Shown: piece after piece, positions 11,385-45,775 of the stretch | Layout: each line of letters opens with the position of its first letter | How positions within the stretch are numbered: the stretch's first letter is position 1 | Source of the DNA: Vicia villosa | Taxonomy: Eukaryota > Streptophyta > Magnoliopsida > Fabales > Fabaceae | Length of the DNA: 64,000 nucleotides | NCBI RefSeq assembly: GCF_029867415.1 | Contig: NC_081181.1 | Coordinates: forward strand, 122,279,183 to 122,343,182 | Direction: 5' to 3' | The notes under the pieces: generated by a model | What the model was told of the DNA's origin: nothing | What the model saw: the letters and a program-made list of their open reading frames with translations, nothing else | Databases searched by the model: none | Program-made: the position numbers and the translations under genes

Positions 11385-14348
11385 TTGATTAAGACACAAT
11401 ACATGTCACATAGCCAATAGTGCAACCTGCACCTTAATTAACAAACCATATCACGATGAGCTTTTAAAGTCATCTGGTGAATGGTGACAACACAGTGTGT
11501 CCCCCCTCTTCAAATCTACCGGCTCTGTGAGTTATGAGCTTGCTGTTACCAATACTTTCAATAATGGTGTTTTCTATGTTTCATTTGCTTCATGTTGACA
11601 TTGACAAACTAGTGTAACTTGTCCTCGTATCGGTTTCGCATTAAAGTCAGAAGGGGACCATGGTAATCTAGAATATTCTCAACCGAATGGTATGTACTAT
11701 GTATTATGTAAAGTCTGATCAATAAGTGTTTCCGTCAGTATTCAAATTCAGATAAAATGTTAATTATAGAAGTATGAGGATTGGAAGAATTCAAAATAAA
11801 ATCAAATTTAATGGAGCACGCCAAGAAGCATGGTCAAAACCAAAAGTGTTAAGTTGCTAGCACAAGCATTGCTAATAAATCTTTTATTATTTTGTTCTTT
11901 ATGTAACTCTTAGTATGCTACTGAAGTATATGTTCAAACATAAATGGTCTCATTCGTAACTGCAGAGATTAATCTGTAGTCAGACAAGACTACATGGGTG
12001 GCAAAGAATCAGATTTGAACTTGAGATAAGCTCGAAGAGACTTGTTACTTGTACAATCTCGTGTTTTTTGGTTTTCGGGACCATATTCTAAACTAAATGA
12101 AGGGCTATAAGAAGAAAACAAAACTTCTGCAAACTATTCTAGTGTATACAATAAAATGACTTGCAATCGTGGACCGGCAAAATAATGTGATTGCAGAATT
12201 TCTTTTCTATGAATCTAGCCTGTCCCATCTCCTAAGTCAGCTGTAACTTCACCACTAGTTGGCCTGCAAGGTTTCAAAACAAATAAATAAAATCAGAACA
12301 GATAAATTATATATCTATAAGGTTTAGTTTAGTTTAGCACTTCATTTCCTATGTGAATCCTTAGGGTGTAGTAGCCTAAATGTAAGCAACAAATGCTCAG
12401 ATTTCATTAATTTTACTGTTGATTCTGAGCTTGCCAAATCAAATAGAACACAACATAAAACTACTACTAGATAGCATAAAACTATACAGATAGGTGCAAG
12501 CAAAGATGAATCGACAGAGGAGAAAGATTATGCACATGCCAAAAACACCACATAGTGGAGGATCATTTAAAAACACATTACAAGGATGACACAACAGAGG
12601 AGAGCTTCAAAACACAAACAAATAGAAAACTTGAGACAGGAAAATGTCAGAATGTATGTACACATTGCCGACATGAATAACAGTGTTTTAAAATTTTAGT
12701 AGTTTACGACTTTGTGGAACTCAGAGAAACAGTAATTTGACAAATCGTGGAGGGCGATACGATTATGATACCATATTGAAGTTATAGGGTTTTAGATAAA
12801 GAAGGATAGCAAAGAATAAGAACTTTGAAATCTGAATATGGTTTAACATGATTGATGAATATGACTTGATAAGAAAAGACTAAACCCTAAGTCTAACCCT
12901 TACTTTTAATACAAGACTCAAATCCTAAATGAATAAAGAAACGAGTGGAAAACCATGTCCGTGTCCCAACGCAATCAAGCATGAAAATAATCAGGCAACT
13001 ATTTGGAGCTTTTGAGTCATTGTGGTTCTCCCCCGCAAATTTGGATCAAATTGATGGGCATCCAAACGTACACAAAATATCCTCTATTATAATATCAAAA
13101 TACTATAATATTTTGGTCATATCTTCTAACAATGTCAAAATTGTCACCTTACTTGTCATGACACGTGATTTGGTAGGATCGCAGTGCTTATACGTAGGAT
13201 CGGTAACATCAGACAACTTTCAGCAAGACTATATAAGCATTAGTTCTTGATCAGCAATCATTTTGGTGGGTTGATTTCTGCAGCATGGGGGAGAAAGACA
13301 ATGCAGCGAAGGCAGGTTTCTTCTTGGATTATGGTCACGCTAAACGGTACAACAACAACAACAACTAAGTCTTGTCCCAATAAATGGAGTCGACTACATA
13401 GATCAACTTTTGTTATAATGTTCTATCCATGACCATGTTTCTATCCAAATCGTTAATCTCAAGATTTTTTTTAATAACTTCTCTTATAGTTTTTCTAGGT
13501 CTTCTCTCTACCTTTAGTTGTTTGACTTCTCTCCATCCGATCTACTCTCCTTACCAAAGAATCTACGGGTCTTCTTTCTACATATCCAAACCACCTAAGT
13601 CTATTTTCCACCATCTTTTCTATCATAGGTGCTACCCCAACACTCTCCTTAATATTATTATTTCTAATCTTATCTTATCTAGTCTTACCACACATCTAAC
13701 GCAACATCCCCATATTTACTACACTAACTTTATTCTCGTGTTTATTCTTAACCACCCAACATTCTATCTCGTACAACATTGCAGGTCTTACCACAGTCCG
13801 ATAAAATTTTTCCTTTAACTGAGCGATACCTTTGTGTCACATAAAACCCTTGAAGCCCTTTTTCATTTCAGCCACCCATCTTGTATTCGATGGTTTACAT
13901 CCTCTTCTATTTCACCGTTGCTTAGTATTATAGCGGAACCAAAATATTTAAACTTTGTGGCTTGTGGATGATACGATCTCCAACTTTCACCTCTAGGTTA
14001 CAAACACTTCTCCTTATGCTGAACTTACATTCCATATACACCGTCTTACTTTTTCTTAAGCGAAAGTTATGCGTTTCTAAAGCTAGTCTACAACCTCTCA
14101 TTTAAATCCTCCGTTGACTCTCTAAGTAGGACTATATCATATGCAAAAGGCATGCATCTCGGTGCTAGCTCTTGGATGTGTTACGTGAGTACATCCAAAA
14201 TTAAAATAAAAAGGTGATGGCTTAGAGTTTACCTTGATACAAACCTATTGTAATGGAGAAATCGTCGGTCTCTCCAGCCTGTGTCCGCACACTAGTCGAT
14301 ACTCCTTCATACATATTTTGGATAACTCAAATATATGCAATCCTAACC
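11385..14348. repeat. Segmental duplication, copy B
   Basis: This matches copy A (6223-9952), offset by 5162 bp at the left end. It contains the functional-position exon 6 of the carrier (12215-12263), its 3' flank, and the part of intron 5 with the LINE remnant. The right limit falls inside the LINE remnant, which continues to about 14420. Confidence 0.85.
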
Positions 14349-17132
14349 CCTTTCTTCTCCAAGACTTTCCACAAAATCTCTCTAGACGGAACTTTATCAC
14401 ACACTCTCCAAATCAATAAAATTAATTGCAACACAGCTAGATCTAACTGCAATCAATAGTTAATAATGAGTGTAACACTTTAAGAGTTACACTGGTGTAA
14501 TTTGTCAATTTGTAGGACCTTATGATCCAAGTTACAATCCGACAGTTTACGCTTTCCACTCCCCTTTCCAATCCTAAGTAAAATTTCGATATTGATTATG
14601 TTGCCTCTAACATTAAGGTTTACTTTCAAACTAAATAACCAACATCTCATATCCAGAGACTACAGACTTTATGAGCGGAAATTCATTGAAGTTATTTCAG
14701 ACTAAATTGAATAAAATCATTGATTGCCTATATCTTTATTTAACTTCCTCTTTTCATTCGTTTTTATCCAGAGAAAAATAAATTGTACTTAAATAAAACA
14801 GAAGAATACTACAGAGAAAACTACAAAAGAATAAATATCACTTAAAAGTTTAAGAAGTAATGCACTTACAGTCCACCTAAAACTTTGATTGTATCGTAGA
14901 AAAACCATTGCATAGTTATCGAAGGACCAACCAGCAACATTCTAATAGGAAGGCTCCTGGTAAATAAATTGGCTAGTCCAATTTTTCTGATAGCCTGCCA
15001 TAAAATAAGCGAAACACGTTTAGTACAACGGCTTCAATCTCTGAAGAAAGTATCATAATTCATAAACCAGATGTAAAGAAGACGATACCAGCATAAGACT
15101 ATCAGCTTTTTTGTTATAAAGAGAAGCTACTATATTGTCAGCAGGATTAGAAATAAAGCTACCAACAGATCCAGCGGTATATCCAGCTAAACATGTCACA
15201 CCAAGTTGTTGAGCTTTTGAACATTCCTCCTTTTTTCTTTTGACAACATTACGATACAAAAAATCAACAGAATGCTCGAACGTTGAGAACATAACAATGG
15301 AAACTGTTAGCAAAAAAAAAGCAAGATTTAATATTCAGTTCAATGATGAACAACAGCTGTAACAAATATAGACTTATAGCGTATCATTGAAACTACTCGC
15401 TCAATCACCATGCTAATCCAAAGATATGAATATAGTATTCATATTTTGTTAATGTTTAAATATAAAGGTGTACGCTGCAGCCCTTACTAGTGCAAGATTA
15501 AATAAAGTTTCGAGAGATTATGAAATTACATGGAATGTTTCGACCCAAAAGTGGAGCAAGTCCACGGTAGAATCTGCAAGTAGTACATAAATAGAAGATA
15601 AATAATCATTATCATCTCCTAATTAGACAAATACACATCAAGTAGGAAACTAATATATTGAAACATTTCTTACCCTCGTGCGCCTTCTGATGCATATACC
15701 TTCGGAAATCCGTCTAACATGCCCTTAGCAAAACTAGGTTGTGCTTGAACCCTGACTTTAACAGCTTCAAATGGGCATAAGGCTAAATTGGCAAATACTT
15801 CGGCAGATGCACTACTAAGAAAGAACACGAGACTCCTGTGCTGGTCTACCAATACATTGGAGTAAACCCCCTTGAAATATTCATAGAGACCGAATCTACA
15901 CCCTCCTTGAGCACCGTATCCAAAGAACTTTCCTGTCCAACCTTTCCAGAGAACAGAAGGCCCTTGTTCCCTCAATAACGTAGTAAAGCAAGACGAAATA
16001 CTGTGATACTTAATAGGATGCACCTACATGTAACAACATCATTTCCTCCATTAAATATGATCAAACCAACATCATGATCAATTCTAAACATTAGGGTGAA
16101 AAATCATTGTCATAGTAAGAAATATTCAAATTTTCCAAATTTTGTTTGGTTTTAAAACCCTCTAATTTCTAGGGGAAATGACCAATAATCTGGAATTCGG
16201 CCTCAAATGTAAGTTAAGTTTGGCAAATGAAGGTTCTAGTCAGGACTCAAACTCAGGAAAGGGTCGAAACTCAAGAACTCCCAATTTTTCCACATTATCT
16301 GTTCATTAGTATGAAAATCATTCTAACACATAAAGGGTATCCCAAAAAACTGCTTTTCCATCCCACATAAATTGCTACTAAACATTAGGGTGCAAAATCA
16401 TTCTCATACCAGATCAATCCTCTGTTTTGTGTTCTTAGTTAGGGCAAATTGGAAAAATTCCACAAAACTCCTCCAACGTTTAACTATTTTAAGGGTAAAT
16501 CTGGGTTTTCGCGTTCAAAACAATCCAAACCCGCTCGGGCCGGGAAGCGCTCCGCTCCCACTACCCACTAAACATCAAATAGCGGTCGCTATCTCAAACT
16601 GAGACGCGAACCGCACCTCCGGGCCACTATCTCAGGATAGCGCCGCAATCAATAACTCTGTCTCATATCTAAAAGGTAGCCAAAGTTATTCAATTTTTCC
16701 ACATTTATTGCTCATTAGTGTGAAAAACCATTCTCAGAACATAAAGGATAATCCAAAAAACTGTTTTTCCTTAATGCAAAAAAAAAAAAAACTGTTTTTC
16801 CACACATATTATTACTAATCATTAGGGTTGCAAAATCATACTCATACATAAAAGGGCAGCTTAAAAAATCAATTTTTCCACTTCCCCATTTCTAAAACCT
16901 AATCAAACAAAGTAAAAAACAAGTTATATAATAAACGAAATGCAACCTGCATGTTAACTTTCAACACGTCAAGAGGAGTGGTGACAAGGTGAGTGGTACC
17001 AGCACTGAGCATTCCTCCAACGGTGCAAAGGGCATAATACCTAGCCGTCAATTCTTCCGGAATTCTCCCTTCAACCGCCGCGGGGATTCTTCCTTCAATG
17101 GTCGCAGAGATTCTTCCTTCAATGGCCGCCAT
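12215..17132 (-). CDS. Mitochondrial phosphate carrier (SLC25A3/PHT3 type), six exons
   Basis: This inner-membrane carrier imports phosphate with protons for ATP synthesis. Exons, in coding order: 16947-17132, 15674-16023, 15530-15573, 15089-15303, 14870-14994, 12215-12263. All junctions are GT/AG, and the lengths (186, 350, 44, 215, 125, 49) sum to 969 nt: 322 aa plus stop, a normal family size. The three carrier repeats are visible: PLDVLK (53-58), PFEAVK (146-151) and a degenerate PADNIV (247-252). Other family blocks are GGMLSAGTTHL, YGAQGGCRFGLYEYFK and GPSITMQWFFYDTIKVL. The sequence looks closest to the PHT3;3/MPT1 subgroup. ATG at 17132 is the only sensible start. Oddities are an N-terminal 8-residue repeat, a 2.6-kb last intron holding a dead LINE, and a second copy of exon 6 at 7009-7057. 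Function is inferred from the family; the exon chain is inferred from splice signals and phase. Confidence 0.9.
13350..14420 (-). pseudogene. Dead LINE reverse transcriptase fragment in carrier intron 5
   Basis: Minus-strand reading gives a plant L1-type RT in order: LIDLESVCDKV and REILWKVLEKKGVRIAYI (near 14350-14420), VSTSVRTQAGETDDFSITIG, a FADD-box relic read as AYDIVLL near 14120, GEIEEDVNHRIQDGWLK near 13890, KGKFYRT, NRLRWFGYVERRP near 13580, and the ending GRPRKTIREV. Stops and frameshifts interrupt it. An (AAC)n run at about 13350-13365 marks its 3' end. It lies antisense-neutral within the intron, on the same strand as the host gene. Confidence 0.85.
16060..16895. repeat. Degenerate direct repeats in carrier intron 1
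   Basis: A module reading roughly cattagggtgcaaaatcatt followed by t-rich ttttccaca words occurs near 16090, 16385 and 16810. A larger unit (about 16285-16410) is repeated at about 16690-16840. Between them lies an unusually GC-rich patch (about 16520-16650) with ctcgggccgggaagcgctcc. No coding role was seen. Confidence 0.6.
17055..17132 (-). repeat. 24-bp coding repeat at the carrier N-terminus
   Basis: Residues 2-25 are three 8-residue units, AAIEGRIS, ATIEGRIP and AAVEGRIP, encoded by 24-bp direct repeats. They precede the conserved EELTARYYALCTVGGM start of the carrier fold. Confidence 0.85.
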
Positions 17133-21168: not shown

Positions 21169-22125
21169 TGTTTACGGTGATTTCCGGTAAACAACCGCTA
21201 GTCTTCCAAACTATAATAAATATGATTTGGTTACTCGCAGGATCGACTAGATTGATCCTAGGACACATAGTCAAAAAGATTGTTATCAATGGTCATTCGA
21301 ACCATAGTCATGATTCGTCTTCGTTAATAAGAATTGTTTCGAATAAAACGAGTAATCTTGACAATCACTTGGTTATACGTAAGTATAATTTCAGTGAAAG
21401 GATAAGTAAAATAACATATGAAACGAAAGTATTGTTAAAGCGTAAAGAATCTTAAAATGCAGGAATATTAAATACTTCAAAAGTAAATGACATGAAAGTA
21501 AAAATACAGAAATGTAAATGGCAAGAAGTAAATGAAATGCAATAATACTGAAAGATATTTGAAAACGAAAGAGAATACACATGTATTAAAATGGTGGTGT
21601 CATACGTACATTTTCTCAGCGAACTCTTTCTCTTAACACTTGATACTTGAGTAATATGTGAGTGATTTGTACAAAATGAACACACAGAATCCTAACATTA
21701 AGACTCCTATTTATACTAATTTCGACCTTAACGGCCCTACGCTAATCTAATGCCACGTTTCTCATAAGAACTCCAGGGACGCCATCTGTTATTTAGACAG
21801 TTACGAAACCGTCTTCGAATTTCAAATCTTCTCGCCTGAGTCCTTCTTCGACGCGTGGCAGTGTATTTAAAAACACTACGAAAACACGCTAAGTAGTAAT
21901 ACTTGAACATATTTCATAAATTTTGTCTAAGTCCTCGAAGACATACACTTCTACTAGCTTCAGTATTCATTATCTTCATAACGAACTTAGAAGTCTTCAT
22001 TCTCGAAGCATGGCCATCAGGAGCCATTCTTTTATTTTTAAGGGATGGTCATCAGTAACCATCTTTCCTTCGAATTTTTACTTCTTCGAAGAACCAAATT
22101 TGTAAAACGAAATCTTCAGCTAACA
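21169..22125 (-). repeat. 3' LTR of the Tat element
   Basis: 957 bp, TG...CA in element orientation (TGTTAGCTGAAG to CCGTAAACA). It has a TATAAATA box at 21708-21715 (minus). It aligns end to end with 35860-36816. Confidence 0.96.
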
Positions 22126-22138
22126 AATTGCCCCCAAT
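22126..22138 (-). other. Polypurine tract of the Tat element
   Basis: On the minus strand ATTGGGGGCAATT directly abuts the 3' LTR start TGTTAGC. Its position and G-run fit the plus-strand primer. Confidence 0.7.
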
Positions 22139-22402
22139 AAATGCCTGTTTCAAAAATCAAGAGAAATAGGCGTTTCTTGCCATCATAAGATTTCGTCTCT
22201 TATTGATCTTTGAAAGTTCCAAGATTGCTGACTAACGTCATAATCATTGGTGACCCTGTTTCCAAAACGTCTTGTCATTTTCAAAGATGTCTTCTCATAA
22301 CTTACATTCCCACGTTTTTGACCTTACTTCTTGATCATTACTCCTACATACTAGGAGTAAAGCTAATTTATTCGACCGCCGTTGGATTAAATCACTAGCC
22401 GC

Positions 22403-22464
22403 CACGTGTCCCTTGGTTTTTACCCAAAAAGATTTAAAAAGGGTTTCCGTTAAACCTTTAAATA
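22403..22464 (+). promoter_or_regulatory. Promoter region of the PMD cargo gene
   Basis: A G-box core CACGTG (22403-22408) precedes two TATA-like words, TTTAAAAA near 22433 and TTTAAATA at 22457-22464. The second is about 120 bp before the ATG at 22584, leaving an AC/CT-rich leader typical of plant genes. Activity is inferred. Confidence 0.5.
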
Positions 22465-22583
22465 CTTGGTTTTGCACTTTTGTACAACTTTTCATTCCTC
22501 CTTCTTCATCCTCTTCAAAAGGAAAAAAAAACAAACACTCTCAACCTTTTCAAAAAGCTTACTTTTCCAATCAAAACCTCTCC

Positions 22584-25500
22584 ATGGCTTCATCTTCAAA
22601 TGTTCTTCAACCTGTTCTGAAGCTCCAAACAACAACGCGGTCTGGGGAACAAGAACACATTCCAAACCCTAATACCGCAGAAGTGCGCGCTATTTACGCT
22701 TCCCAGGTAATCATTCCCTTTGAACTTTCTGGAAAACCTCTTGCTTTTATGGGTCCATTACCAGATGAAAACAATTCATCTATGAACAATTTCTTCCCCG
22801 CTTATTACAAAACTAGACCCTTAGTTAGTAAGATTAAGATAGATGAAGATGGTCGTTCCCCCTTAGGAAAATCTGCTAATACTGAAGAAACTTCAACTGT
22901 GACCCCTTTGGCTTTGGCGAAAATTAGGTTAAACTATATGACCAACTTTGTAAAAGTGTTTAGGTCAATCCCTTTAGCCAAAGATCCTGATTTGTACTAT
23001 GCCTGGTTAGAAAAAGTAGAGAGAACGAAAGGATCTTTCTGGAAATCGTTAGGCATATATGATTTGATTCAACTGTCAAAAACAAGCTTAGAATATAACC
23101 AACCCATGTTAGTAGCAGCGGTTCACTTTTGGGATGCTTCTCACAACACTTTCCATCTCCCATGTGGGATGGTTACCCCCACTCTCTTTGATATAGCTGC
23201 TATTACGGGACTTCGACCAACCGGGGAGACCTTCGATCCCAATGAGATGGATACTGATACTATTGGTTTTAATGAATCAACAGTTACTTACACTGCATTC
23301 ATCCAGAAGCACCATGACAAAACGCAAGAAGAAGTTTCTGATGAAGAACATATTGCTTTCTTGGCATTATGGCTCTCACGATGTGCCTTCTGCTCAAGAT
23401 CCATACAGGTTGCAAAGAGATACCTTTGCATGGCTAATCAGCTACATGCTGGAAAAAAGCTCAACCTAAGCCAGTTACTTTTAGGATCTCTTTATGAAAA
23501 TCTTAGCAAAGCCTCGAACCTTACCAAAAACTACAAAACTGGCACTCTGCTTTTTGCTGGTCCTTTCTGGCTACTGCAACTGTGGCTTAATGCTACGTTC
23601 GAAACTCATCTTCCTTTCCGAGGCAATGTCAACGAAGAAGATAACAAAATTAAGAATCGAACTATAGAAGGAACCAGGTTGGCTTACCTAACTCCAAAAG
23701 AAGAAACTGGGAAGCTTCGTGAACATTTTCTAGCATATTCAATGATGTTCGCCCAGCGCAATCAGTTCGATCCTTCTATGGCTCCGTTCGTACACAGAAC
23801 AATTGGTCCTGAATGGTTTACTCGAAGGTTCCCATCAACATCTCAGGATCAACAAACTGAGTCTATGGAAATTTGGGAGGCCTTTCTGACCCCAAGGTTG
23901 TTTTCTCATCGCCTTTGACCATCAAAAGGTCAATGTGTCCTTGTGTGCTACCAACCAAATCTGGTTTCGAGACAGTTTGGGTTGGTTCAAGTAAAACCCA
24001 AGTGTTTATATGAGAAAAGGAACCATATGTGTTTCCATACCTTGTACCTGACTGAAGAAGAATGTGAATCAAAAATCAACAAATACGTTGGCGTCACCAA
24101 TCTTTCTCCTATTCCTTTCGAACCTGATTTTTATACTACACCAGACTTTCACCAGTGGTGGACGGATTACTATACTTCTCAAATCTTTGATGCCGATAGT
24201 CTTACTCAAGAACTAACTGCAGCTTTTGCTGATGTGTAGGAGAATTTTCAAAAAGGTACTTCGACTCACATTAAAGAAATCCAAGCTTTTCAAAAATTCT
24301 TTGAAACTATCTACAGGCCTGATGATCTTAGTCGGACCGTTCGTGAGGCTGCAGTCATTTTGCGCGAAAAGTTTTCCGCCAAACTGGATAAGTTGAAATT
24401 GCCCTCGTATGTTCGACCAGAACTACATTATGAAGTGGCTTTCAAACTTAACCCTCCAAAATTCCCTCCACTGCCAAGTGCGGATTTTGGTGTGGCTCTG
24501 AGCCCCCCTCTTCCAAATTGGTTTGTGTGTGGCAACGTTTTAAGAGATCTTCAAGAAAGTACTAAAAAACGTGCTGAACGAGTGGTTCCGACTAAGCATA
24601 CCTTGGATACTTTCAAAGGACATCTTCATATAGATCTTGAACATGTTCGTGTCTTGACTCCAATACCTGAAGGTTTGGATTCAGACAATTTTTCGACTGA
24701 CTTTTCTTTTCTTTGCTGATATACTGATTTCAGTTTCAACTACAGCTGTTGCTCGAAGGAGGAAGATTAAAGAAGCTCCTACCCAAAAGGATTCTGGGGC
24801 ATCTAAAAGCAACAAACCAAGTGAGAGTGACTCCATTGTTACTGACAAGAAGCCCACGGTACATACCCACTTTATATTCTTAATCTTGTATAATCTGTGA
24901 GCAGTACTCATTTTGCTTAATATATATATTTTCCAGAGCTCGAAACCCCCAACAGGTTCGAAACGGAAAGTCTCTTCAACAGTTGTCTCAGATGATGACG
25001 ATAAATCTCCTCCTCGTACCAGACAAGGACATAGAAAGAGACAAAAAGCTGTTACCCCTTCAGGAAAAGAGAAAGGGGTAAGTTCCTCCAAAGTTGCTTC
25101 TCCTGGCGACAAGGCATCTTCTGAAGAATCTCCTCTGAAAACCGCCAGTAATGCTTCCGTTGTCGAAAGCCATAATTCAAGTCCAGACAATATCCCAACC
25201 AAGGTATTTGGGTTTCAACCCACATACTATCTTGTAATTTTAACTAAAAGATTAAACCGACATCTTACCTTGTTATTGCAGGATGATGCTGGCACTGCCA
25301 CTTCAGGTCTTAAGGCTTATGACCTCACTATTAATGTTGATAAACTTCACGGTAATCGTAACTCTTTCACTTCCGTCGATAAACTCCTCAAAGCCTTATT
25401 CTTATGACTAATTCTGGTTTGTTTAACACAGATATCTCTCAAAACAAAACTCATGTTCTCTCACCAGTCTTCGAAGATGCTAGGCCACTCACCACCATAT

Positions 25501-26510
25501 TGCCTAATGAACCAGTCGAAGAAAGCCAATCTACTGACGAATCCCCACCTACTCATCAAGACAAAAATTTGGAAGAAGATCATCCATTCTCAGGCAGCGA
25601 CAATGTGAATCCACAACCACATGACAACGAAGACACTGCATCGGAACAAGATGCTATGGAGGAAACTTCTAAACCAGAAAAACACAATCCTCAAGAAACT
25701 TCAGCCCTAGACACAGAAACCACTCCTGGGACAACTTCGAAGCCTGCCCCTGCGAAGCCTACTCCTTTGGAACTGGAACAGCTTAAGCAAACTGATCCTC
25801 TTAGTTTTCTAAAGGCTATTATGAATGTGAATACTTCTTCGCCTTCAGAACTTGATGTCTCTCCAGCTGTCGTTATAGAATCTGGTGACAAGGAAGACAT
25901 TCCCAACCTCCTTCGACAGATAAAAGAAAAGTTCTTTGGGGTCAATCTCGTGGATATTCTTAGCCGGGAACCTATTAAGAGTCACAACTTAAATCAACTC
26001 TTAAAGAAAGTGGATTTGTTTCAAGTCTCAACAAAAGTTTCAGAGATAATTGTTTTGCTAGGTTCTCTAGTTGAACAGCTCGAGGCCAACATTCTTCGAA
26101 AGCAAAATGTCGAAAAGGAACTATCTGAGAAAATGGCCTCTCATGACTCTTCATGGAATTCTGCTGTGGATGCAACGAAACAAGGTGAGGCCCTCAAGCT
26201 TAAACATTCAGAAAATCAGAAGGCTTTTGATGATTACGAGAAGAACATCAACTCCTGGAAGCAAGAGATAAAGGCCCTCGAAGAAAAGATAAAGGAAGCT
26301 GAACATTGTCAGGCAGCCATACAAAAAGCCAACCAACAGGATTTGCTCGAAGTGGTGCAATCGGGAATTAAACATTTCGAAACTGCGCAGAAATTAGTGC
26401 CAGAGATTGAAAGATTGAAGAAACATCGGGCGTTACTTGAGCTTCGTATGTCTTCGTGGGAAACTCAATATTTGAAGATCAAAAATAGCCTCCCTGAGGA
26501 CTTTAACTAG
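22584..26510 (+). pseudogene. Plant mobile domain (PMD) protein with coiled-coil tail, retrotransposon cargo, two in-frame stops
   Basis: PMD proteins include MAIN and MAIL1 (nuclear, gene silencing and genome stability) and many transposon-borne relatives. Exons inferred: 22584-24672, 24734-24858, 24937-25203, 25282-25306, 25432-26510; all junctions GT/AG. They sum to 3585 nt (1195 codons) with phase kept throughout. PMD blocks lie at about residues 157-217 (VAAVHFWDASHNTFHLPCG, AAITGLRPTGETF), 252-306 (ALWLSRCAFC, LLLGSLYENL) and 320-344 (FAGPFWLLQLWL). A low-complexity Ser/Pro/acidic linker follows, and the last 140 or so residues look coiled-coil. In-frame TGA (23916) and TAG (24237) interrupt an otherwise well-kept frame, with recognisable family sequence after each. 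ATG 22584 (tccATGGCT) is preferred over upstream codons. It runs antisense to gag-pol. The first intron (61 bp) is the least certain. Confidence 0.8.
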
Positions 26511-26960
26511 CTGTTTCCAATCCTGTATTTTGTTGCATTTTCGTTTTGTAATCGAACTTTTTGTAGAAACATCTATCTGTATGCTTGACTTCTATTTTCA
26601 TTCCGCCTATGTTTCTAATATTCGCAAGCACTATCTTTTAGCAAATCTTTCAAGTTCTGCCAGAATATATCTTTAGATTTTCCATAGTGATTTTATTTAA
26701 TGCAACATGTAGACCCTGACTATCCTTCGCAGCATCCTTGCCTTTAGACTTGACGTTTCCACTTCTCTAGCCATAATCATTATTTAAACAATGACGTCAC
26801 TCTCTTCAAAAACGTCTATTTGAGACGTGCGTGCGTCAGTTTCATGATTACTTCTCAACTTCCAAGGGCGGGAAACGGCGGAAGCCTTAACTCCCTTTTT
26901 GGAAAACCAAATGCAGTCTAATCAATCATCAACATTTAAACCGACCTTCAGTATCCCAGG
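26511..26960 (+). promoter_or_regulatory. Spacer between the two cargo genes with promoter-like sites
   Basis: After the PMD stop comes a T-rich 3' flank with TTTGTAATC words. Further on, a palindromic bZIP-type TGACGTCA (26792-26799) and an E2F-like GGCGGGAAA (26867-26875) precede the TATA box of the next gene. Binding is inferred from consensus only. Confidence 0.5.
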
Positions 26961-26962
26961 TC

Positions 26963-26970
26963 TATATAAA
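26963..26970 (+). promoter_or_regulatory. TATA box of the second cargo gene
   Basis: TATATAAA, about 100 bp before the ATG at 27069. The spacing allows a start near 26995 and a CA-rich leader of about 75 nt. Confidence 0.7.
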
Positions 26971-27068
26971 GGGTCTAATATTACTTTCACTTCTTCATTC
27001 ATGTGCTTTCTCACATACTAACAACAGAAAAGAAAAACCAACTTCTTTCTCCAAACCCTTTTTCTGAA

Positions 27069-27803
27069 ATGGCTGCACCTCTTTCTTTCAACAACATAAA
27101 AGCTCTTATCAAGAAAGAATTCAAACTTTCTGAAAATGAACTTGATAACAACTTCATCAGCCTCGAAAACCTCTTTGTCAACCAAGAACTGGACTTCTAC
27201 TTTGGAGAAATCCTGGAGGGTCCTGTCTACCCCAACATGTTGGCAGATTTCTGGATGTTTGCGTCTCTACGCATAGATCCTGAAGGTAGGACCACCATTG
27301 TTTCTGAGGTTCGACATGCTCATATCAGCATCACTCCCACCACCATTGCTAACCTAATGAGATGCAATAATTCTGGGGAAACTTTTGATGATAACAGCTT
27401 CAACATGACTACTCATCTCATGTTGAGGACTCTCATGGACAACGACCCCTTCAGTGCCAAGGTTATCAGGATCTGGCATCAACTGCTTGTGGGTAACTTC
27501 CATCCTCGGAGGCTTGATGAAAACAGCATAATGGTTGAAGATTTGGAGTTTATTCTCTGTGGTCTTCGAGGGAAGAAGATTAACTTTCCTTTGATGATTT
27601 TCAAAGGACTTGTTAAGGCTGTTTCCATAGGTGTCACACGTCAAGGGACTGTGTCCTGGCTTCCCTATGGGAGACTCCTCTCTTACATTTTCCTTAAGAA
27701 AGGTGTAGTGAGGAGGATGCACAATTCTGGATCCATAGACATGTTCGAAGCCGAAAGCTTGCCTGTGCTGTCCTTGGAGGGTTTAGACCAAAGGATTAAT
27801 TAG
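27069..27803 (+). CDS. Second cargo gene, 244-aa protein of unknown function
   Basis: An intact intronless frame antisense to pol, inside the Tat element. ATG 27069 (gaaATGGCT) fits the leader and TATA spacing better than the upstream alternative at 27003. The protein is soluble-looking, with no signal peptide or membrane segment. The blocks VYPNMLADFWMFASLRID, VRHAHISITPTTIANLMRC and the C-terminal LPYGRLLSYIFLKKG recall proteins annotated in plants as putative transposon or envelope-like proteins, but I cannot prove this by search and assign no function. It ends 243 bp from the 3' end of pol, so the two are transcribed towards each other. Unlike its PMD neighbour it has no internal stop, which suggests younger origin or selection. 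Confidence 0.75.
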   Translation: MAAPLSFNNIKALIKKEFKLSENELDNNFISLENLFVNQELDFYFGEILEGPVYPNMLADFWMFASLRIDPEGRTTIVSEVRHAHISITPTTIANLMRCNNSGETFDDNSFNMTTHLMLRTLMDNDPFSAKVIRIWHQLLVGNFHPRRLDENSIMVEDLEFILCGLRGKKINFPLMIFKGLVKAVSIGVTRQGTVSWLPYGRLLSYIFLKKGVVRRMHNSGSIDMFEAESLPVLSLEGLDQRIN

Positions 27804-28046
27804 CAAGAGTTTGCCTTAGGTTTTTATGCTTTCTTTTTGTAATCTCAGAAGTTTCTAGATCATGTTCTTTGGATCCTTTTTGTAATGCATGTACTTCTGT
27901 ATTTGAATGAAATTTTTTTGGTGTTTTCTTTGACTCTTTTCCTTTAATTTATCAACCCATTCTGATTGTAAAGTCATTTTGATCAATGCAACGCATATGT
28001 TTTGATACATGCTTGACCATTTTGGCTTTCGTAGTACCCTGAATGT
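27804..28046. other. Convergent spacer between cargo gene 2 and pol
   Basis: T-rich sequence with TTTTTGTAATG and GAATGAAA words (27885-27915), resembling plant 3'-end signals for the plus-strand gene. Confidence 0.5.
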
Positions 28047-31000
28047 CTACGTTTTTGCAATCTTTACTTCGTACATGCTTGGTTTATATCTCTTCAAATA
28101 TTTCCCGTTTACTCTCAAGATCCTACGATCTTCTGCCAACTCTTCAATTTCGTAAGCATTGTTCGAAAATACCTTTAAGATTCGAAAGGGTCCTTCCCAG
28201 TGTGGGGACCATTTACCAAGTGCCTGATTCTTTCGATCTATAGGTAAAATAACTTTCCAAACTAGGTCATTATTAATAAATGTTTTACCTTTCACCTTTT
28301 TGTTGTATGCTCTGGACACTCTTTCCTTTTGTCTTTTTATCATTTCCAGAAGTCTGTCTTCATCCAAATCTACCAACTCATTCATCATTAACTCCCAGTA
28401 TACGTTGGGAGGAATATCTGCTTGTCTTTGTATCCTTACTGATTGCAAATATATCTCAATTGGAAGTACTGCATCATGTCCAAACGTCAACTGGAAAGGA
28501 GTTGTGTTTGTAGCTTCTTTTGGAGATGTTTGACAAGCCCAAAGTGCTTGGTCCAAAGTCTTATGCCAATTCTTGGGTTTCTTTCCCACATGTTTTTTAA
28601 TAAGGCCAATTATTATTTTGTTTGCTGCTTCAACTTGTCCATTTGCTTGAGCATAGTAAGGTGTAGAAGTAAATAACTTGAAACCTATTTCTTTGGCAAA
28701 GTCTTGCATTTTTCGTCCAGTAAAGACTGATCCTTGATCAGTCGTTATACTTTCTGGGATTCCAAACCTATATATAATATGTTTCTGAATAAACTCAATC
28801 ACGGCCTCTTGATCCACATTCGCCAGTGGTATAACTTCGACCCATTTCGTGAAATAGTCTATCCCTACTAATATGTACCTTTGACCTTTAGACGACTTGG
28901 GGTGAATTTCTCCAATCAAATCTAATGCCCATCCCCTAAAAGGCCAAGGTTTTACTATTGTACTTAATTCGTTTGCTGGAGCGTGTTGGATACCTGCATG
29001 TTCTTGGCACTCTTGACACCCTTTCGCAAACTCTATGCAATCTTTTAACATCGAAGGCCAGTACATCCCATAACGAAACAAAAGCCATTTCATTTTGTGC
29101 CCTGCTTGATGTGCACCACATGCTCCACTGTGTACGTTCGACAGGGCCAGGTATGCTTCTGCTTCACCCAAGCATTTCAATAATACCCCTTCAGGAGTTT
29201 TCTTGAACAATTCATTTCCCATCAGGAAATATGACAGGGCTCTATACTTGATTTTCCTGTCTATATCCGTCGAAGGATTTTTTATATAGTTTATTATTGG
29301 ACTCCTCCAATCTGTATCTGCCAATGAGTCTATGTTTAATACTTCGAATTCTTCTTTGTTGGCATAACCCAATTGTGAATTCTCTAGGTCACTTGGGGAA
29401 AGTTTAGTAGACATTGCTCTCCCTCTTACTTCAATCAATTCCTCTAACTTCTCTTTTGATACTTTGTATCCTGAAGCTAATTGTGCCAAGTCGTTTGCTT
29501 CTTGGTTATTTATCCTTGATATGTGTTTTGATTCCACATATTCGAATTTCTTGAGTAACCTATTTGCTATGACAAAATACATGATCAAATTTTCTTTGAT
29601 GCACTTGTATTCCTTTGTCAATTGTTTAATGACCAATTCGGAGTCTCCTTTAATTTTGACTCTGGTTGCCCCCAATTCTAACAAAGCTTCAAGTCCAGCA
29701 ATTAATGCTTCGTATTCAGATTCGTTGTTGGAGCATAATGGACCTTCGATTTTATACTTGAGCTTTGTTGGAATTCCATCAGGAGAAATTATCAACATTC
29801 CAACTCCAGTTCCTTCTCTATGCGTTGAACCATCGAAGTATAACTTCCAGGGTTTTAAACCCACATACTGTTGATGACTCTCAACTACTGCATGGTCGAC
29901 AATGAAATCTGACACAATTTGACCTTTCATTGCCTTGAGAGGCTGAAATATTAATGAATATTCAATAAGGGCTAAAGCCCACTTACCAATTCTACTATGT
30001 AGTATTGGCTTGGATAACACATGTTTAATAACATCACAATGAGATGAAACATAGACATCAACTGGCTTTATATAATACTTAAGTTTGATACAAGAGAAAT
30101 ACAAGCAAAGGCAGAGCTTTTCTATAGCAGTATATCTAGTCTCTGCATCATTGAGTACTCTACTTAAGTAATAAATGGCTCTTTTGATGCCATTCTCATC
30201 TTCTTGCGCCAGCATGCTGCCTATTGTTTTATCCGACGCTGAAATGTATAGGCGCATGTGCTTCTTCCCATTTGGGGGAGATAAGATTGGTGGACAAGTC
30301 AAGTATTGCTTGATCTGATCGAAAGCTTCTTGATGTTCAGCACGCCATTCAAATTTTCCTTGCTTAAGCCGTAGTAGAGGTGAGAAAGCTTGCGTGCGTC
30401 CACTCAAATTAGAGATAAATCTCCTTAAGAAATTTATCTTTCCCAATAATGATTGTAGTTCTTTCTTTGTGGACGGAGACTTGGTTTCCATTATGGCTTT
30501 CGTCTTGTTCTGGTTAATTTCTATTCCTTTTTTGTGGACTACGAAACCCAAGAAATCACCTGCCTGCACAAAGAAAGCACATTTGAGGGGGTTCATCTTC
30601 AAGCCATGTTTCCTCATTCTTTCGAATGATTGGCTCAAATGATCGAGATGACTCATACCCGAGGTAGATTTTACCACAATGTCATCTATATATACTTGCA
30701 TGAATTTTTCTATAAAGTCATGGAATATAGAATTCATTGCTTTTTGATAAGTTGCCCCAGCATTTTTTAAACCAAAAGGCATTACAACCCATTCGTAAGT
30801 GCCTATTGCCCCTGGGCAACGAAATGCTGTTTTGGATACATCATCCTCTGCAATAAAGATCTGATTGTATCCAGAATATCCATCCAACATGCTCAAATAC
30901 TCGAAGCCTGCGGCTGAGTCTACTAGCATTTCTGCTACAGGCATGGGATATTCGTCTTTAGGAGTGGCTGCATTAAGATCACGAAAGTCTATGCATACTC

Positions 31001-31754
31001 TTAATGAACCATTCTTTTTAATTGCAGGTACTATATTAGCAATCCATTCAACATACCTTGTAGTTCGGATAAACTTGCAACGTAGAAGCCTTTCGACCTC
31101 TGCTTTAATCTTCGAATGAATCTCTGGCGCGAATCTCCTGGGAGTTTGCTTTACAGGCTTCTTCCCTTCTTTTATTGGTAGTTTCAATTCGACCAAGTCT
31201 CTTCCTAGACCAGGCATCTCATCATAATCCCAAGCAAAACAATCTCTATTTTCTTTCAACATTTTGATGACCGTTGCTTTTAGTTCTGGTTCTAGTTTCG
31301 CGCTGATGTATGTTATTCTTTTTCGATCCTTGTCTCCAAGATTTACTTCTTCAAGTGGATCCTGAGCCAACATCTTTATGTTCGACGCCATTGGGTCTTT
31401 TTCAAATCCCAAAGGTTCTTCGTCGTAAATTGCGTCTAACCTTTGACTCGATTCTTCTCTCACGATCTTTTCGACTTGAACCGGGTCTTCAGAGAATTCG
31501 AAACTCGTATGTATCTCTAACTCTGTTACTCCGTTTTTGGTTAGAACTGCGTCCATCTTTGCATTTGATAGTTCGGCTTCGAGAGCCGCCTTCCTTTTGT
31601 TCTCGGCCACGTAAGCCGAAATCTTTTCGAAGAACGAAGACTCAGACATTATTAATGTCATCGTCCCAGCCTGTTGGCCGTACTGCTGGATAATTCTCCA
31701 ATGGTGCTGTATCTGCTGGACCATCCATGATCTCTCTATCCCACTGGAATCCAT
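28047..31754 (-). CDS. pol: Tat-lineage Pol: RT, RNase H, second RNase H, integrase
   Basis: A 1235-aa open frame that copies and integrates the element. RT spans about residues 220-400 with [29 protein letters not shown] and the catalytic YIDD (355-358). The first RNase H is at about 495-610. The second, of the type that marks Tat elements, is at about 636-760, with [10 protein letters not shown] and [15 protein letters not shown]. Integrase has a zinc region (H875, H882 or H886, C913, C916) and the DDE residues D945, D1006 and E1042, then a C-terminal [10 protein letters not shown] module. All catalytic residues are present and there is no internal stop. The frame overlaps the gag-pro end by 113 bp and lies in +1 phase to it, so it needs frameshifting, splicing or internal initiation. 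Met 1 is only a formal start. Confidence 0.95.
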
Positions 31755-34700
31755 TTGGGTGTAAAGTTAAATAGTACAATGCATTCTTATTTGGGGCATA
31801 CATCTCTTTTGCAGCATGACAAGGACTTATGTTTGCCAGGTTCCTATCGAAGTTGGTTTTATTCACCTGGTTAACTTCAGCCATATAGTAACTCTGATCT
31901 CCTTCGATATTCTCCACTATACCATCTTCCCTCCAAATTGTCACCCATTGATGCATTGTCGAGGGCACAACTGCCACCCCATGAATCCATTCCCTACCAA
32001 GCAAAAGGTTGTAATTTGCTTTTGCTGGTATAACCATGAACATAGTTGCCCTTGTGACTGAGCCCACTGTCAAATTGACCTGAACGACTCCCAATGTTTG
32101 TCCTATCTTGCCTTCATAGTTAGATAAGACCATGTTATGTGGCCTTATATCAGTATCGAACATACCAATTCTCTTTAGCATGTATTGAGGCATTAGGTTC
32201 ACCGCTGCTCCCCCATCAACTATGACTTTATTAATGCCAACATTCTCAATTTTAGCCCTGATATAGAGTGGCTTCAAATGATTTCGCATACCCTCATCAG
32301 GCCTTTCGAAGAAAGCGTTCTGTTCTTCAACTGCACCATTATTCAACACATAATAACACACAGGCCTGTGCTTCGCCATTTCCTCGATATCAGCCTCTTC
32401 GCAGTCTTCAACTTCAGTCTCCTGATTAAACTCATGAGGGAGTACGGATACAACGTTGCAATTGAGGTTTATAGACGACACTCCATCAGAATCGAAATCA
32501 TTTGTCATTCTATCCTCTTCTTTCCAGGAATTGGAGCGCATCTTTTCTTCTTCTTCTAAAATGTTTTCAGCTTCGAAGAGCCTGCGTTCCACCGGAGGTT
32601 TGTTTGACTTTGCCCCCTGGTGTGGGACTTGGTTGCTACTAGAATCTCCAACTTCTCTTGGTCTGTATTCCTTTTGAGCCTTTTTTATCCTCTGATGCCT
32701 TCTCCACTGGGATCGGGACATAGGATTTTTTCCTTTGTAATTCTCCAATCGATACGCCTCTCGATTTGGTTTTTGAAATTGCTTCCTATATGCCATTGCA
32801 GTTCTTCCTCCTTGGTCCCAACTTCGCCATTTATTGTTTCTTGCATTAGCTTGCACCCATCTATCCCTGGGTGCATCTGCAGGGACTTTGAATGTTACCC
32901 TTCGAGCTCTGGGGTGTGGGCTATCAGGCCTCTTCGTTGGAGTCCATATGTCGAAACCGTATAGGTTAGGACGCAACCCCTGAGTTTCTCGACCCATGTA
33001 ACAGTACACACGTTCGAATGATCTTGCCAGCATTTCATCATAGACTGCCCCACATCTGGGGCATAGTGCAACTTCAGTGTTCCCTTTGTGGCACCTGACC
33101 AAAAATCCTACTAAGCTTTCCTCCATCCTTGGGTACACTTGTAGTAGGGGATTTGGTTCTCTCCCTGGGTGTTCCCATCTTTCGCGTCGAGCCCTTTCGA
33201 AGTTAGCTTCGACCCTTCGATTCAGCATGATTGAACACCTTGGACACATCCATTGTTTTCCACCATTCCTCTCATGGCAATTCCAAAGGTAGTCTTTGAG
33301 GCTTTCACCTTTTGGAGGAGCTTCGATGCCCCCATTTTGCCTCGTCAGCCATGTCTCTAATTCGCCAAATTCAGACACTGGACGTCTGGCACTGACCATG
33401 TTAACAACTGCTGGAGGAACTTCAGAGATTTGGATTTTCTGGAGTTTCATTCTGAGGTCTTCAGTGGCCTCACTGTTGTCTCCCTTCGACCCTTCAGGTA
33501 TCTCTGTCTTGGAAGATTCTTCAACATCAATATTGAAGACTATATCATTATTTAGGCTTTCAGTAGCCTGCTTTCCATTGAACATTGTTTTGGTTTCCGC
33601 AACTTCGACTTTAGATGCCTCCACCATGTTGATATCTTCTAGCTCACAGAGGCTAGCGTCAGCAATGTTCAGGGGATTGGTATCGACCTTCATGTGACTC
33701 TTGGTCTTGTCAGCAAACTTCAACCTTCCATCTTTGATAGCATTTTGAATTAGATCCCTGAAAAGAAAACATTGTGAAGTTTTATGGCCTAAAAAACCAT
33801 GATATTTACAAAAACCTCTTTTCTTCCGTTGTTCCAATGGAGGAATTTTGGAATTTGGAGGCAGTATCATTTGGCCATCTTTTACCAGTAAATCAAATAT
33901 TTCATCACACTTGGTAACGTCGAATGTATAAGTTTTCTTAGGGAACCTATCATTCTTATCGTTTTCTACTGGATTTTTTCCATTTGCAGGGTTTAGCAAT
34001 TTGCAGGCATAAGGTGGCGCTTCTTTCAACTCAGCTAAATCTATTTCGACTTCTTCAGGGTTATACGAGTCATTGAAAGACTCATCATCATCGTCTTCGG
34101 CTTCGACGTACGCTACCCTTTCCTTTTTATAACTTTTATTTGCTCTAACCTTTTCTGCCTTCAAGCGTTCGACCTGTCGAACCCTATCTGCCAACTGGGC
34201 CATATCCCTAAGGTATTGGGTATCTAGTTTCTTTCTAATTGAATAATCTAGACCACCCGCAGCCATTTCGACTAGTTCATGCTCTGGGACTGTTGTAAAA
34301 CACCTTGATTTCAACAGACGGAACCTATTCAAGTAATCATCAATTGGTTCTGTGAACTTTCTTTTAATACTGGCCAATTCTTTCAGACTTATCTTAGTTT
34401 GGCCTATGTATAATTGTTCATGGAACAGCCTTTCTAAGTGTGCCCATGCATCTATTGAATTTGGTGGCAGGGTAGTGAACCAAATGAAAGCATTCTTTGT
34501 TAGCGAACTAGGGAAATATTTGATCCTTAGATCTTCGTTTCCTGCTAAGTCCCCTGCTTCTGTCAAATATTTAGCAATATGTTCCACCGTTGACTCGTTA
34601 GTTTCGCCTGAAAACTTTGTAAATTTGGGTACCTTAGTGCCCCTAGGCAATTCTGTCTGCATGATATAATCTGATATGGGGGATGTATAATTTGGACGTC

Positions 34701-35775
34701 GAAGTCCAGTACTAAGGCCATTATTGGCCATAACCCTTTCTATCATGGCAGTTAAGTTATTTTCTGTAGCCAGATTTTCTCTTCTGACTCTTTGGACAAT
34801 CTCATCTGGATGCTCATCCCTACCCACGATCCTTAATCTGGGTCTCTCTTCTTCCGTTTCCTGTCGAACGGGAACGGTTCTTTGATTTGAAGCCTCTAAG
34901 TTAATTACTGGAGTTCCTTCGGTCATCTCTGTTCTTCGTGAGGGGCCTACATCTCTAGTGGCCGTCCTAGATGGTGGAACCACATCTTGTATACGTTCCA
35001 AAATGGGCCTCTCTTCTTGATTCGAAGGCTGTTTGTCTTTCCTTCTTGGTTGTGGCACTCCCATGAAATCTGCCATTCGATTCGTTTGGGATGATATCTT
35101 TTGGAAAGTTTCCATATTATCCCGATTTGTATTAGCAATATTTGTCGCTAGTGGGTTCAAAATTGAAGCCAATTCTTTGGCCAAGACCCCTAACATATCA
35201 TGGTTGCTTGCATCCATTTCTTGCCGAAATGCTGCTTGGTTATTTGTGGTAAAATGGGGCATCTGGGTAGAAAAACTAGTGTTGTGTGGACTTCGACCCA
35301 CTGAACCAACATTCGGTGAAAACGTCGCATTGTTAGTTGTGGCATATGTGGGCCCTGCCCCTCGTACGCCTGTTCCAAATGGATATGGCATTCCGTATGG
35401 ATTATTTGGCATCCACTCGAAAGTAGAATTCGTGCCGTGACCAAACAAGTTATTTGCAGCATTTGTCGAGGAAAACGGTATTTCCTCTGCGCTTGTGGAT
35501 GAAGGTGCGGTTGTCGATTCTGAGACTGGAATAGTCCCTGAAGGTCCTGTATTATTTTCAGGCATAGCCTGGGAATTATCTGCAGGTCTCGATCCATTTG
35601 GACCCGGTGTATCCCGTGTTCCCTGACTAGAAGTCGAATTTGCCGCTCCTGATCCTGAACCTTGTGGGGGACCTTGGTCACCCCCTGCACTGGCCGTAAC
35701 GACCATTTTCTTGTTGTACCTTCGTTTGGGAATCGGTTGTGCACTGTTCGTTAACTTACCGTTCCTAAGGTTCAT
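31642..35775 (-). CDS. gag: Tat-lineage Gag and aspartic protease
   Basis: A 1377-aa open frame. The N-terminal ~340 residues are low-complexity (Ser, Thr, Asn, Pro). The retrotransposon Gag domain lies at about 375-545 ([35 protein letters not shown]). A zinc knuckle of CX2HX4HX4C form is at C656-C669. Two related CH-x(8-9)-CPRC modules follow at 833-847 and 895-908. The protease has [10 protein letters not shown] with its aspartate near 1187; DGG in place of D(S/T)G is usual in this lineage. ATG 35775 lies 64-81 bp downstream of the primer-binding site and is the natural start. The particle protein and processing enzyme are made here. The frame is intact. Its last 113 bp overlap pol. Confidence 0.93.
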
Positions 35776-35838
35776 ACAAGGTCTTGATATTGTCTAGACA
35801 AAAATAAAACAATTGATTAAAATAATCTGTTTGACACA

Positions 35839-35856
35839 GTCCCACTGGGCGTGCCA
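35839..35856 (-). other. Primer-binding site of the Tat element
   Basis: On the minus strand TGGCACGCCCAGTGGGAC begins 3 nt after the 5' LTR end. It starts with TGG, the complement of a tRNA CCA end. I cannot name the tRNA without a search. Confidence 0.75.
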
Positions 35857-35859
35857 ATT

Positions 35860-36816: not shown

Positions 36817-37425
36817 ACATGTAAATTTGAAATTTAAAATGAATTAATTCATCATAAAATAAATGATAATTATATAATTTTATTTTATTAAATAATTAAA
36901 GAAGGAGAGATAAAAAGAAGTGTGAGAATGAGAGGATAGAAGTGAGTTGGAAGGAAAAGAAAAAGTTTTAAACCTATGTTATGGTTTTACCCCATGGGTA
37001 AAGGAGTGTTCCAACAAAATTTGAAAAAGATGGTGCCACTTGGATGAAAGTAATATTTTGATTGGTTAGTACAATTTTATTTAGTCAATTACCATAAAGG
37101 GTTTTTTGTAGTGTAAATTATTTTTTAGTGAAAAAATATATTAGGGAGAGACTAAGCATGTCTCATTCTTAGATAGATAGTTGATGACATTTTTATGATT
37201 TATCATGTCCTAGAACTCTACAACAAAATGGAGTTTTAAAAAGGATCTTCAAGAGATGATTAGGACCAAGATCATTGAGAAAAATATAATTAAGTATTCA
37301 AAAGTCATGATTAATTTTAAATTTATTACTAAAAAATAGCATATTATGTTAGTACAGTTAAAACATAGATAACAGTAGAAAAAGGAAAGACAGAAAATTA
37401 AGGAAAGTAAATAGAGAGTTAAGAT

Positions 37426-45697: not shown

Positions 45698-45775
45698 TAG
45701 TATGTTGAGAAATGTTTGTTGGAGATTGATCGTGTCAGCACTGTTCGTAGTAAATGATTTAGACTTGGGAAGGGT

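Follow-up and report, generated by a model that had tools for sequence, protein, structure and literature searches.

A constrained antisense two-gene module in a Tat-type retrotransposon family of Vicia villosa

A family of Vicia villosa retrotransposons carries, between pol and the 3' LTR, a constrained accessory module written antisense to gag-pol and composed of a PMD gene with a long tail and conserved intron-like GT-AG stretches (gene 1) and a 244-aa, Transposase_32-like gene (gene 2). The copy described here lies in a window of 64,000 nucleotides, i.e., the whole stretch of contig NC_081181.1 that was analysed, and all coordinates refer to this window.

The element and its cargo

The vetch element is a young Tat-type Ty3/gypsy retrotransposon. 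As the earlier note had claimed, it is complete, with both LTRs (957 bp each, TG..CA ends), a target site duplication (TSD) and open gag-pro and pol on the minus strand. The youth and Tat type that it had also proposed are borne out by the LTRs, which have 4 differences (953/957 identical), and by the domain order of pol, where a Pfam scan places RT_RNaseH at 497-599, RVT_3 at 640-759 and rve at 938-1034. We take RVT_3 to be aRH, the second RNase H, and, read in this way, the vetch pol bears the Tat-clade mark of an aRH between RH and integrase. The second RNase H characterizes the Tat clade (OTA, Ty3/gypsy) and in angiosperm forms lies between RH and INT (PMC6317226).

21164-21168: TSD ACATG, left, matching the right copy
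21169-22125, minus strand: 3' LTR, 957 bp, from comparison of the LTR pair
22126-28046, plus strand: cargo
28047-31754, minus strand: pol (RT, RNase H, RVT_3, integrase), open, 1235 aa, from ORF and Pfam scan
31642-35775, minus strand: gag-pro, open, 1377 aa, overlapping pol by 113 nt
35839-35856, minus strand: putative primer binding site TGGCACGCCCAGTGGGAC, matched exactly at 2200 genome sites (0 for the reversed control)
35860-36816, minus strand: 5' LTR, 957 bp, from the same comparison
36817-36821: TSD ACATG, right, matching the left copy

The cargo, described previously as two plus-strand genes antisense to gag-pol, is real, with corrections to the gene details. It was found in many copies and adjoins pol at the same place in those examined, also in diverged subfamilies, and therefore both a single-copy cargo and a late nested insertion are ruled out. 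Across the loci compared (29 short, 6 long and 6 further ones), the gene order next to pol does not change. Among the family copies, dN/dS in the true frames of the cargo genes is 0.09-0.22, i.e., purifying selection acts on gene 1 as well as on gene 2, with constraint somewhat weaker than on pol, and the copy comparison supports a pairing of the two genes that is conserved across subfamilies. Searches for relatives in viral_contigs and genome_contigs confirmed none, and an Rfam scan gave no match at gathering score.

Structure of the two genes

The domain of the PMD gene noted earlier stands (PF10536, E 1.9e-31, 109.9 bits against a gathering score of 34.9, in the open part of gene 1), but its one-ORF structure does not, as the comparison with relatives yields five exons and, in this copy, two in-frame stops. 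The 244-aa gene was found as claimed, intact with its ATG at 27069.

22584-24672, plus strand: gene 1 exon 1 with PMD (PF10536), from the Pfam match and relative P0001; its 3' end is the least certain boundary of the gene
23916-23918, plus strand: in-frame stop of this copy, absent from 10/10 other copies read there
24237-24239, plus strand: second in-frame stop of this copy, from comparison with relatives
24673-24745, plus strand: gene 1 intron 1, 73 nt, the less secure of the introns; L039, L042, L043 and L044 preserve its GT..AG ends and the frame
24746-24858, plus strand: gene 1 exon 2, from comparison with relatives
24859-24936, plus strand: gene 1 intron 2, 78 nt, skipped by P0012, P0109 and P0110; GT..AG in 4/4 copies
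24937-25203, plus strand: gene 1 exon 3; dN/dS 0.15-0.19 in L042-L044
25204-25281, plus strand: gene 1 intron 3, 78 nt, skipped by P0093, P0109 and P0110; GT..AG in 4/4 copies
25282-25351, plus strand: gene 1 exon 4, from comparison with relatives
25352-25431, plus strand: gene 1 intron 4, 80 nt, skipped by P0093, P0109 and P0110; GT..AG in 4/4 copies
25432-26510, plus strand: gene 1 exon 5 (tail, termed coiled-coil in the earlier note); dN/dS 0.15-0.21 in L040-L044
27069-27803, plus strand: gene 2, 244 aa, Transposase_32-like, ORF with copies compared; PF20167 below threshold

Relative P0001, compared with exon 1, is 88% identical and matches PF10536 at 127.9 bits; by projection from it, the PMD region was placed at about 23052-24161. 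P0001, P0002 and P0012 lack the stops at 23916 and 24237 and their frames continue, and gene 1 is considered broken in the present copy because of these two stops; other copies with a broken gene 1 have spread. P0109 uses the acceptor side of intron 1, whereas P0012 continues through this intron, P0002 runs into it, and P0001 and P0005 end there. The P0012 model also continues into intron 3. Gene 2 scores 31.1 bits against PF20167 in the window and 37-40 bits in three relatives, below the curated cut-off of 45, and its predicted fold (pLDDT 35) is unusable. Homology between gene 2 and PMD, prompted by look-alike motifs, was dropped at an hhalign probability of 0.15% (shallow profile).

Upstream regions

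That each gene has its own TATA region, as the earlier note held, finds strong cross-copy conservation for gene 1, whereas for gene 2 it is weaker and confined to the box and short stretches rather than the entire upstream region. The comparison thus supports promoter-like conservation of unequal strength.

22271-22390: conserved non-coding block upstream of gene 1, from copy comparison
22338-22360: perfect palindrome inside the block, 9-bp arms and 5-bp centre
22455-22465, plus strand: TATA-like CCTTTAAATAC of gene 1, conserved in 5/5 copies and also in 10/11 rows (window counted)
26963-26970, plus strand: TATA box TATATAAA of gene 2, core GTCTATATAA conserved in 7/7

Within the block, the 100 nt at 22276-22375 show 0-1 differences in each of L041, L043 and L044 and are strongly conserved in 10 more copies; these were picked via the palindrome, so its invariance among them is an effect of locus choice and the flanking conservation alone counts. 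With up to 2 mismatches allowed, the palindrome has 2276 matches in the genome and its reversed control has 0; as an RNA hairpin it reaches z -1.74, and a hairpin is not claimed. The TATA-like box of gene 1 is followed by a diverged leader.

Related systems

The pairing, suggested before to be perhaps undescribed, was indeed absent from the main-text literature searched as an antisense combination of a PMD gene with a Transposase_32-like gene, but most of its ingredients are already published: PMD in Tat elements, antisense ORFs and an own antisense promoter. PMD occurs in 57% of Ogre elements (Neumann 2019, PMC6317226), and Ikeda 2017 (PMC5418596) gives Gypsy-only PMD-A clades A1/A2. The vetch element resembles these angiosperm Tat-type elements in having a PMD gene outside gag-pol; the vetch gene is antisense, intron-split, long-tailed and accompanied by a second antisense gene, and the gag-pro/pol overlap differs from the mean gap of 274 bp, which is typical of Ogre rather than strictly defining (PMC6317226).

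Antisense genes in plant LTR retrotransposons have, according to references in PMC7264820, been described since 1997-1999, and their function is called unknown in the literature surveyed. All Retand clusters surveyed carry antisense ORFs (104 ORFs, 63 clusters), with TRP28 (PF04195) in 97% of clusters and some ORFs of Smc type, as stated in the available text of Vicient 2025 (PMC11963269), which mentions neither introns nor PMD for them. The Retand mark of antisense ORF(s) between pol and the 3' LTR is present in the vetch element, with PMD and Transposase_32-like genes in place of Transposase_28; PF04195 had no match in the five cargo ORFs at E 0.1, nor in the relatives scanned. Similarly placed is gene23 of maize Grande, which according to PMC7264820 is antisense, has a promoter of its own and encodes a nuclear protein; its domain, in the text consulted, is not PMD, and its expression is demonstrated, whereas the vetch genes are known from sequence. 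In sunflower Athila, a PF20167-type domain also occurs in an additional Gypsy ORF, but there it is an ORF(+), in contrast to the antisense gene 2 of a Tat-type element with its sub-threshold score (PMC11728184).

Possible functions of the module

The predicted fold of the gene 1 PMD matches the VANC21 chain given in PDB 9lnj as solved with DNA, over 333/362 residues. VANC21 of Arabidopsis VANDAL21 (PMC5735166) is likewise a transposon gene product, its gene lying next to the mobility genes of that transposon, and trans action is likely in vetch too. The differences are that VANDAL21 is a DNA transposon, that VANC21 belongs to the DUF1985 family with sequence similarity to the vetch PMD undetectable, and that DNA binding and demethylation are demonstrated for it (PMC5735166), whereas gene 1 is known from its sequence and predicted fold. 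DUF1985 was absent from Pfam scans of the cargo ORFs and relatives, searching BFVD with the PMD model returned no hit at E below 0.001, and Foldseek with VIA listed no other PDB family for PMD, an absence that proves nothing. A k-mer scan for VANC-like motif clusters in the element left a weak signal after multiple testing and is not claimed.

Our preferred reading, held tentatively and somewhat short of probable, is that gene 1 encodes a VANC21-like trans-acting anti-silencing protein of the element family, with gene 2 aiding it and both having their own antisense promoters. RNA polymerase II would transcribe the two genes from these promoters and the gene 1 transcript would be spliced; the introns would survive retrotransposition because genomic RNA is the other strand, where they would go unrecognised. 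The product, VANC21-like in its fold, would bind DNA in the nucleus and act in trans on the non-coding DNA of the family, with the palindromic block ahead of gene 1 as the candidate site, and copies would stay transcribable despite host silencing. Gene 2 may serve the same end by a route left unspecified, and copies with a broken gene 1, the present one included, would be served by intact ones.

It is rather unlikely, though the strongest of the alternatives, that both genes encode retrovirus-like accessory proteins that aid the life cycle of the element itself (import of the pre-integration complex into the nucleus, choice of target or LTR transcription) and do not counter silencing. PMC7264820 and PMC11963269 propose such a role for antisense ORFs, and it agrees with the constraint on both genes, even if this is somewhat less than on pol, but the protein that the PMD fold matches is a DNA binder that counters silencing; the spread of broken copies does not decide, because trans-acting accessory proteins would allow it too. 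Less plausible still is a decoy that joins or displaces host PMD complexes of MAIN/MAIL1 type and blocks silencing without binding element DNA. Element and host have the PMD family in common, MAIN/MAIL1 function in silencing (PMC5418596) and transposon PMDs have been suggested as counter-silencing (PMC8616336); however, Ikeda et al. put Gypsy PMDs in the separate clades A1/A2, and the modelled VANC21 match suggests direct DNA binding. We consider it very improbable that antisense RNA is the working product, regulating genomic RNA via interference or dsRNA with the ORFs minor: PMC7264820 raises the possibility and copies conserve the block ahead of gene 1, but dN/dS in the true frames shows that the protein is under selection, which disfavours RNA as sole function. 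Passive carriage of captured host cargo or a nested insertion is scarcely credible, even if hosts have PMD genes too, since constant order beside pol and purifying selection refute a recent, albeit not an ancient, capture.

Extending the anti-silencing reading, we consider it possible, albeit doubtful, that the antisense module is an anti-silencing system, that retrotransposon PMD, VANC and MAIN/MAIL1 form one transposon-born DNA-binding superfamily with opposite uses, and that the antisense strand is a niche keeping an intron-bearing regulatory gene through reverse transcription. The VANC-PMD link was not found in our literature search. If true, VANC anti-silencing and PMD silencing factors would join one protein superfamily. 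The fold link gives a precise and testable form to an idea earlier based on phylogeny (PMC8616336), namely that a VANC-like PMD protein counters silencing in trans and in a sequence-specific way. The conserved introns, moreover, suggest that antisense orientation allows a retroelement to carry a spliced gene, a natural arrangement akin to the antisense-intron reporter used in the laboratory (PMC12786077).

A young Tat element with an antisense cargo

Self-comparison of the window revealed an LTR pair delimiting an element at 21169-36816, whose parts, together with the cargo between pol and the 3' LTR, are as follows.

21169-22125 and 35860-36816: LTRs (TG..CA ends), 957 bp each, 4 differences
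both element ends: flanking 5-bp target duplication, ACATG
minus strand: putative primer site, preceding gag-pro
minus strand: gag-pro, 1377 aa, open
minus strand: pol, 1235 aa, open
22584-24672, plus strand: gene 1 exon 1 (proposed)
24746-24858, plus strand: gene 1 exon 2 (proposed)
24937-25203, plus strand: gene 1 exon 3 (proposed)
25282-25351, plus strand: gene 1 exon 4 (proposed)
25432-26510, plus strand: gene 1 exon 5 (proposed)
27069-27803, plus strand: gene 2, 244-aa ORF

The earlier note had described a complete, young Tat element, and this holds by its LTR pair, ACATG duplication, open gag-pro and pol, and low LTR-LTR divergence (K = 0.0042), which at substitution rates of 0.7-2e-8 corresponds to ca. 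0.1-0.3 million years. Its pol also has the Tat domain order (RT, RNase H, a second RNase H-like domain (RVT_3), integrase), the same as that given for angiosperm Tat elements in the consulted part of PMC6317226. TAATACT, the core of the reverse complement of the motif of VANC21 (the anti-silencing DNA-binding protein of Arabidopsis VANDAL21), occurs eight times on the plus strand of the element (four of them inside the two LTRs) and never on the minus strand, a bias that may be chance.

The plus-strand PMD gene proposed earlier (gene 1) is present, but it is proposed to be split over five exons, and it is broken by stops in the window copy. Its model comes from aligning six predicted V. villosa proteins to the cargo: P0001 and P0002 align to exon 1 alone, in P0012 and P0093 PMD parts are joined with the gene 1 tail, and P0109 and P0110 chiefly cover the tail, the ORFs at 22413-23918, 24360-24719, 24913-25407 and 25404-26510 being fragments of this single gene. 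The exons are separated by four frame-keeping stretches of 73-80 nt, starting with GT and ending with AG. Each of introns 2, 3 and 4 is left out by three of the six protein models, although P0012 enters intron 3 at its own end. Intron 1 is less well supported than these: its acceptor side matches P0109, but P0012 continues across it, P0002 extends into it, and both P0001 and a further protein, P0005, stop at its place, so that a shorter PMD product is possible. Gene 1 of this copy has in-frame stops at 23916 and at 24237, both at places where P0001, P0002 and P0012 are open, and is thus broken; exon 1 is open in other copies. Among the matches listed, 96 rows (6766 first-look candidates) gave 95 PMD places in the genome, 52 of which, as read off the match table, had an open frame of at least 690 codons and no stop in the matched part.

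Gene 2 scored 31.1 bits against PF20167 and three relatives 37-40 bits, under the cut-off of 45; this domain has been reported in a sunflower Athila ORF and termed related to Athila ORF1 (PMC11728184, in part). There were 13 protein matches (full length at 243-244 aa in five and 270 aa in one) and 20 matches in total in the profile search. The best 150 of 10662 candidate genome matches all reached at least 84%, and the matched part was free of stops in 128 of them (read off the table), a share biased upward because these are the best-scoring copies.

The two genes as a family trait

Searching the genome with the cargo proteins returned many copies with both genes next to an antisense pol. The order gene 1 exon 5, gene 2, pol end was seen at 29/29 short loci (window copy excluded). 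Six long copies, picked by us to span 84-98% gene 2 identity, all had gene 2 and exon 5 with pol antisense to both; an LTR was found in five, and the PMD exon was whole in three (0, 3 and 3 stops), partial in two and not found in one. Among the matches listed, at least 48 of the 95 PMD places had a same-strand gene 2 start 3.8-5.7 kb away (median 4.48 kb), 12 more had one 6-60 kb off, 35 had none in the list, and no other arrangement of the two within 6 kb was seen. Ten sites of a palindrome found upstream of gene 1, chosen for their absence from the PMD and gene 2 match lists, each preceded the start of a PMD gene with 69-97% identity to the N-terminal part of P0001. All six loci traced further had gene 2 with pol antisense to it, 77-85% identical to the window gene 2 (one cut by the stretch end) and with a stop in two of the six.

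Purifying selection, which the earlier note had suggested looking for as dN/dS below 1, was seen in both cargo genes (Nei-Gojobori, window copy against the genomic copies L040-L044): 0.093, 0.087, 0.093, 0.103 and 0.221 for gene 2, 0.173, 0.209, 0.135 and 0.160 for exon 1 (L041-L044; L040 lacks it), 0.147, 0.208, 0.189, 0.183 and 0.185 for exon 5, and 0.150-0.194 for exon 3 (L042-L044). All bootstrap upper limits were below 0.42; the comparisons are not independent, as they have one common reference and L041-L043 are mutually close. The close copy L039 (0.24-0.97, wide limits) is too near the window copy to decide, and 29 close copies gave ratios of means of 0.44 (gene 2) and 0.28 (exon 5). 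As a control all six frames were compared, and gene 2, exon 1, exon 5 and pol (0.07-0.10) each had their lowest value in the true frame. A low value was likewise found in the mirror antisense frame (0.15-0.36), which is to be expected because third positions are shared; pseudo-frames gave 0.46-0.93 (intergenic) and 0.34-1.80 (LTR). Third-position divergence of L042, L043 and L044 from the window was 0.14-0.23 in gene 1 versus 0.21-0.31 in gene 2, a gap hinting at recombination between subfamilies.

Promoter-like regions and a palindrome

The claim that each gene has its own TATA region stands insofar as a conserved box precedes each: GTCTATATAA before gene 2 is intact in 7/7 copies, and CCTTTAAATAC upstream of gene 1 is kept in 10/11 rows, the window copy included. 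The leader after the gene 2 box differs by 13-22% in subfamily copies (three with a 36-nt insertion), and the remaining intergenic region varies about as much as introns (9-19%), so that for gene 2 the promoter case is limited to the box plus short stretches. In front of gene 1, positions 22276-22375 show 0-1 differences per 100 in L041, L043 and L044; for comparison, introns of L042-L044 differ by 12-16% and third positions by 14-31%. This block contains a perfect palindrome with 9-bp arms, of which the genome contains 2276 matches when up to 2 mismatches are allowed (reversed control, 0). It is also kept in ten more copies whose leader falls to 30-39% identity, although only the flanking conservation is informative here, the copies having been selected by the palindrome. 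Such a pattern could reflect an antisense promoter, protein binding, or a role for the sense 3' end close to the polypurine tract.

Other features of the window

A 4327-bp direct repeat (47433-51759 / 53354-57680, 99.86% identical, 1.6 kb apart) has a left copy that adjoins an N run, and is therefore either an assembly-gap false duplication or a non-autonomous element's very long LTR. It is enclosed by a second one (41705-43501 / 62209-64000, 99.6%, TG at the start, continuing past the window), which has the appearance of one LTR element nested inside another. The window also holds a 64-nt tandem array at 45403-46916 (a family of 8 overlapping copies, plus related repeats), collinear diverged repeats at 6223-7287 / 11385-12502 (87%) and 8931-9952 / 13310-14348 (83%), perhaps an old tandem duplication, and a minus-strand mitochondrial carrier gene fragment (PF00153) at 15670-16023.

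Putative antisense introns and possible action in trans

PMD domains in Gypsy elements have been published (PMC6317226; PMC5418596 and PMC9289625, both in part), as have antisense ORFs in all Retand clusters, TRP28 being in 97% (PMC11963269, in part), and an antisense gene that has a promoter of its own (PMC7264820, in part). The main texts searched yielded no antisense pair of PMD and Transposase_32-like genes (Neumann's Additional file 4 may contain examples), no conserved introns in such an antisense gene and no link of PMD to the VANC21 fold; no relevant VANC structure paper was among the matches listed. The term "intron" does not occur in the portions consulted of PMC7264820 and PMC11963269.

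In the four copies with the region (L039, L042, L043 and L044), intron GT and AG are intact at 16/16 sites, with differences at up to 17/68 intron positions and 1-4-nt indels in three of the four. Splicing would not remove these introns from the genomic RNA, which is the opposite strand, and their survival across subfamilies would be expected from the antisense orientation.

Seven (L045-L051) of eight copies with a short PMD frame share a stop at window position 24069, which is absent from both long-frame copies and likewise from the window copy, while the first gene 1 stop of the window copy recurs in none of ten others. Judging by this common stop, a lineage with truncated gene 1 has probably multiplied. 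Only 0.16 new stops are expected in exon 1 of the window copy since its LTR age (P = 0.012 for two), making it unlikely that both arose after insertion. A gene 1 product supplied in trans would fit both the multiplied truncated lineage and the improbability that the two stops are new.
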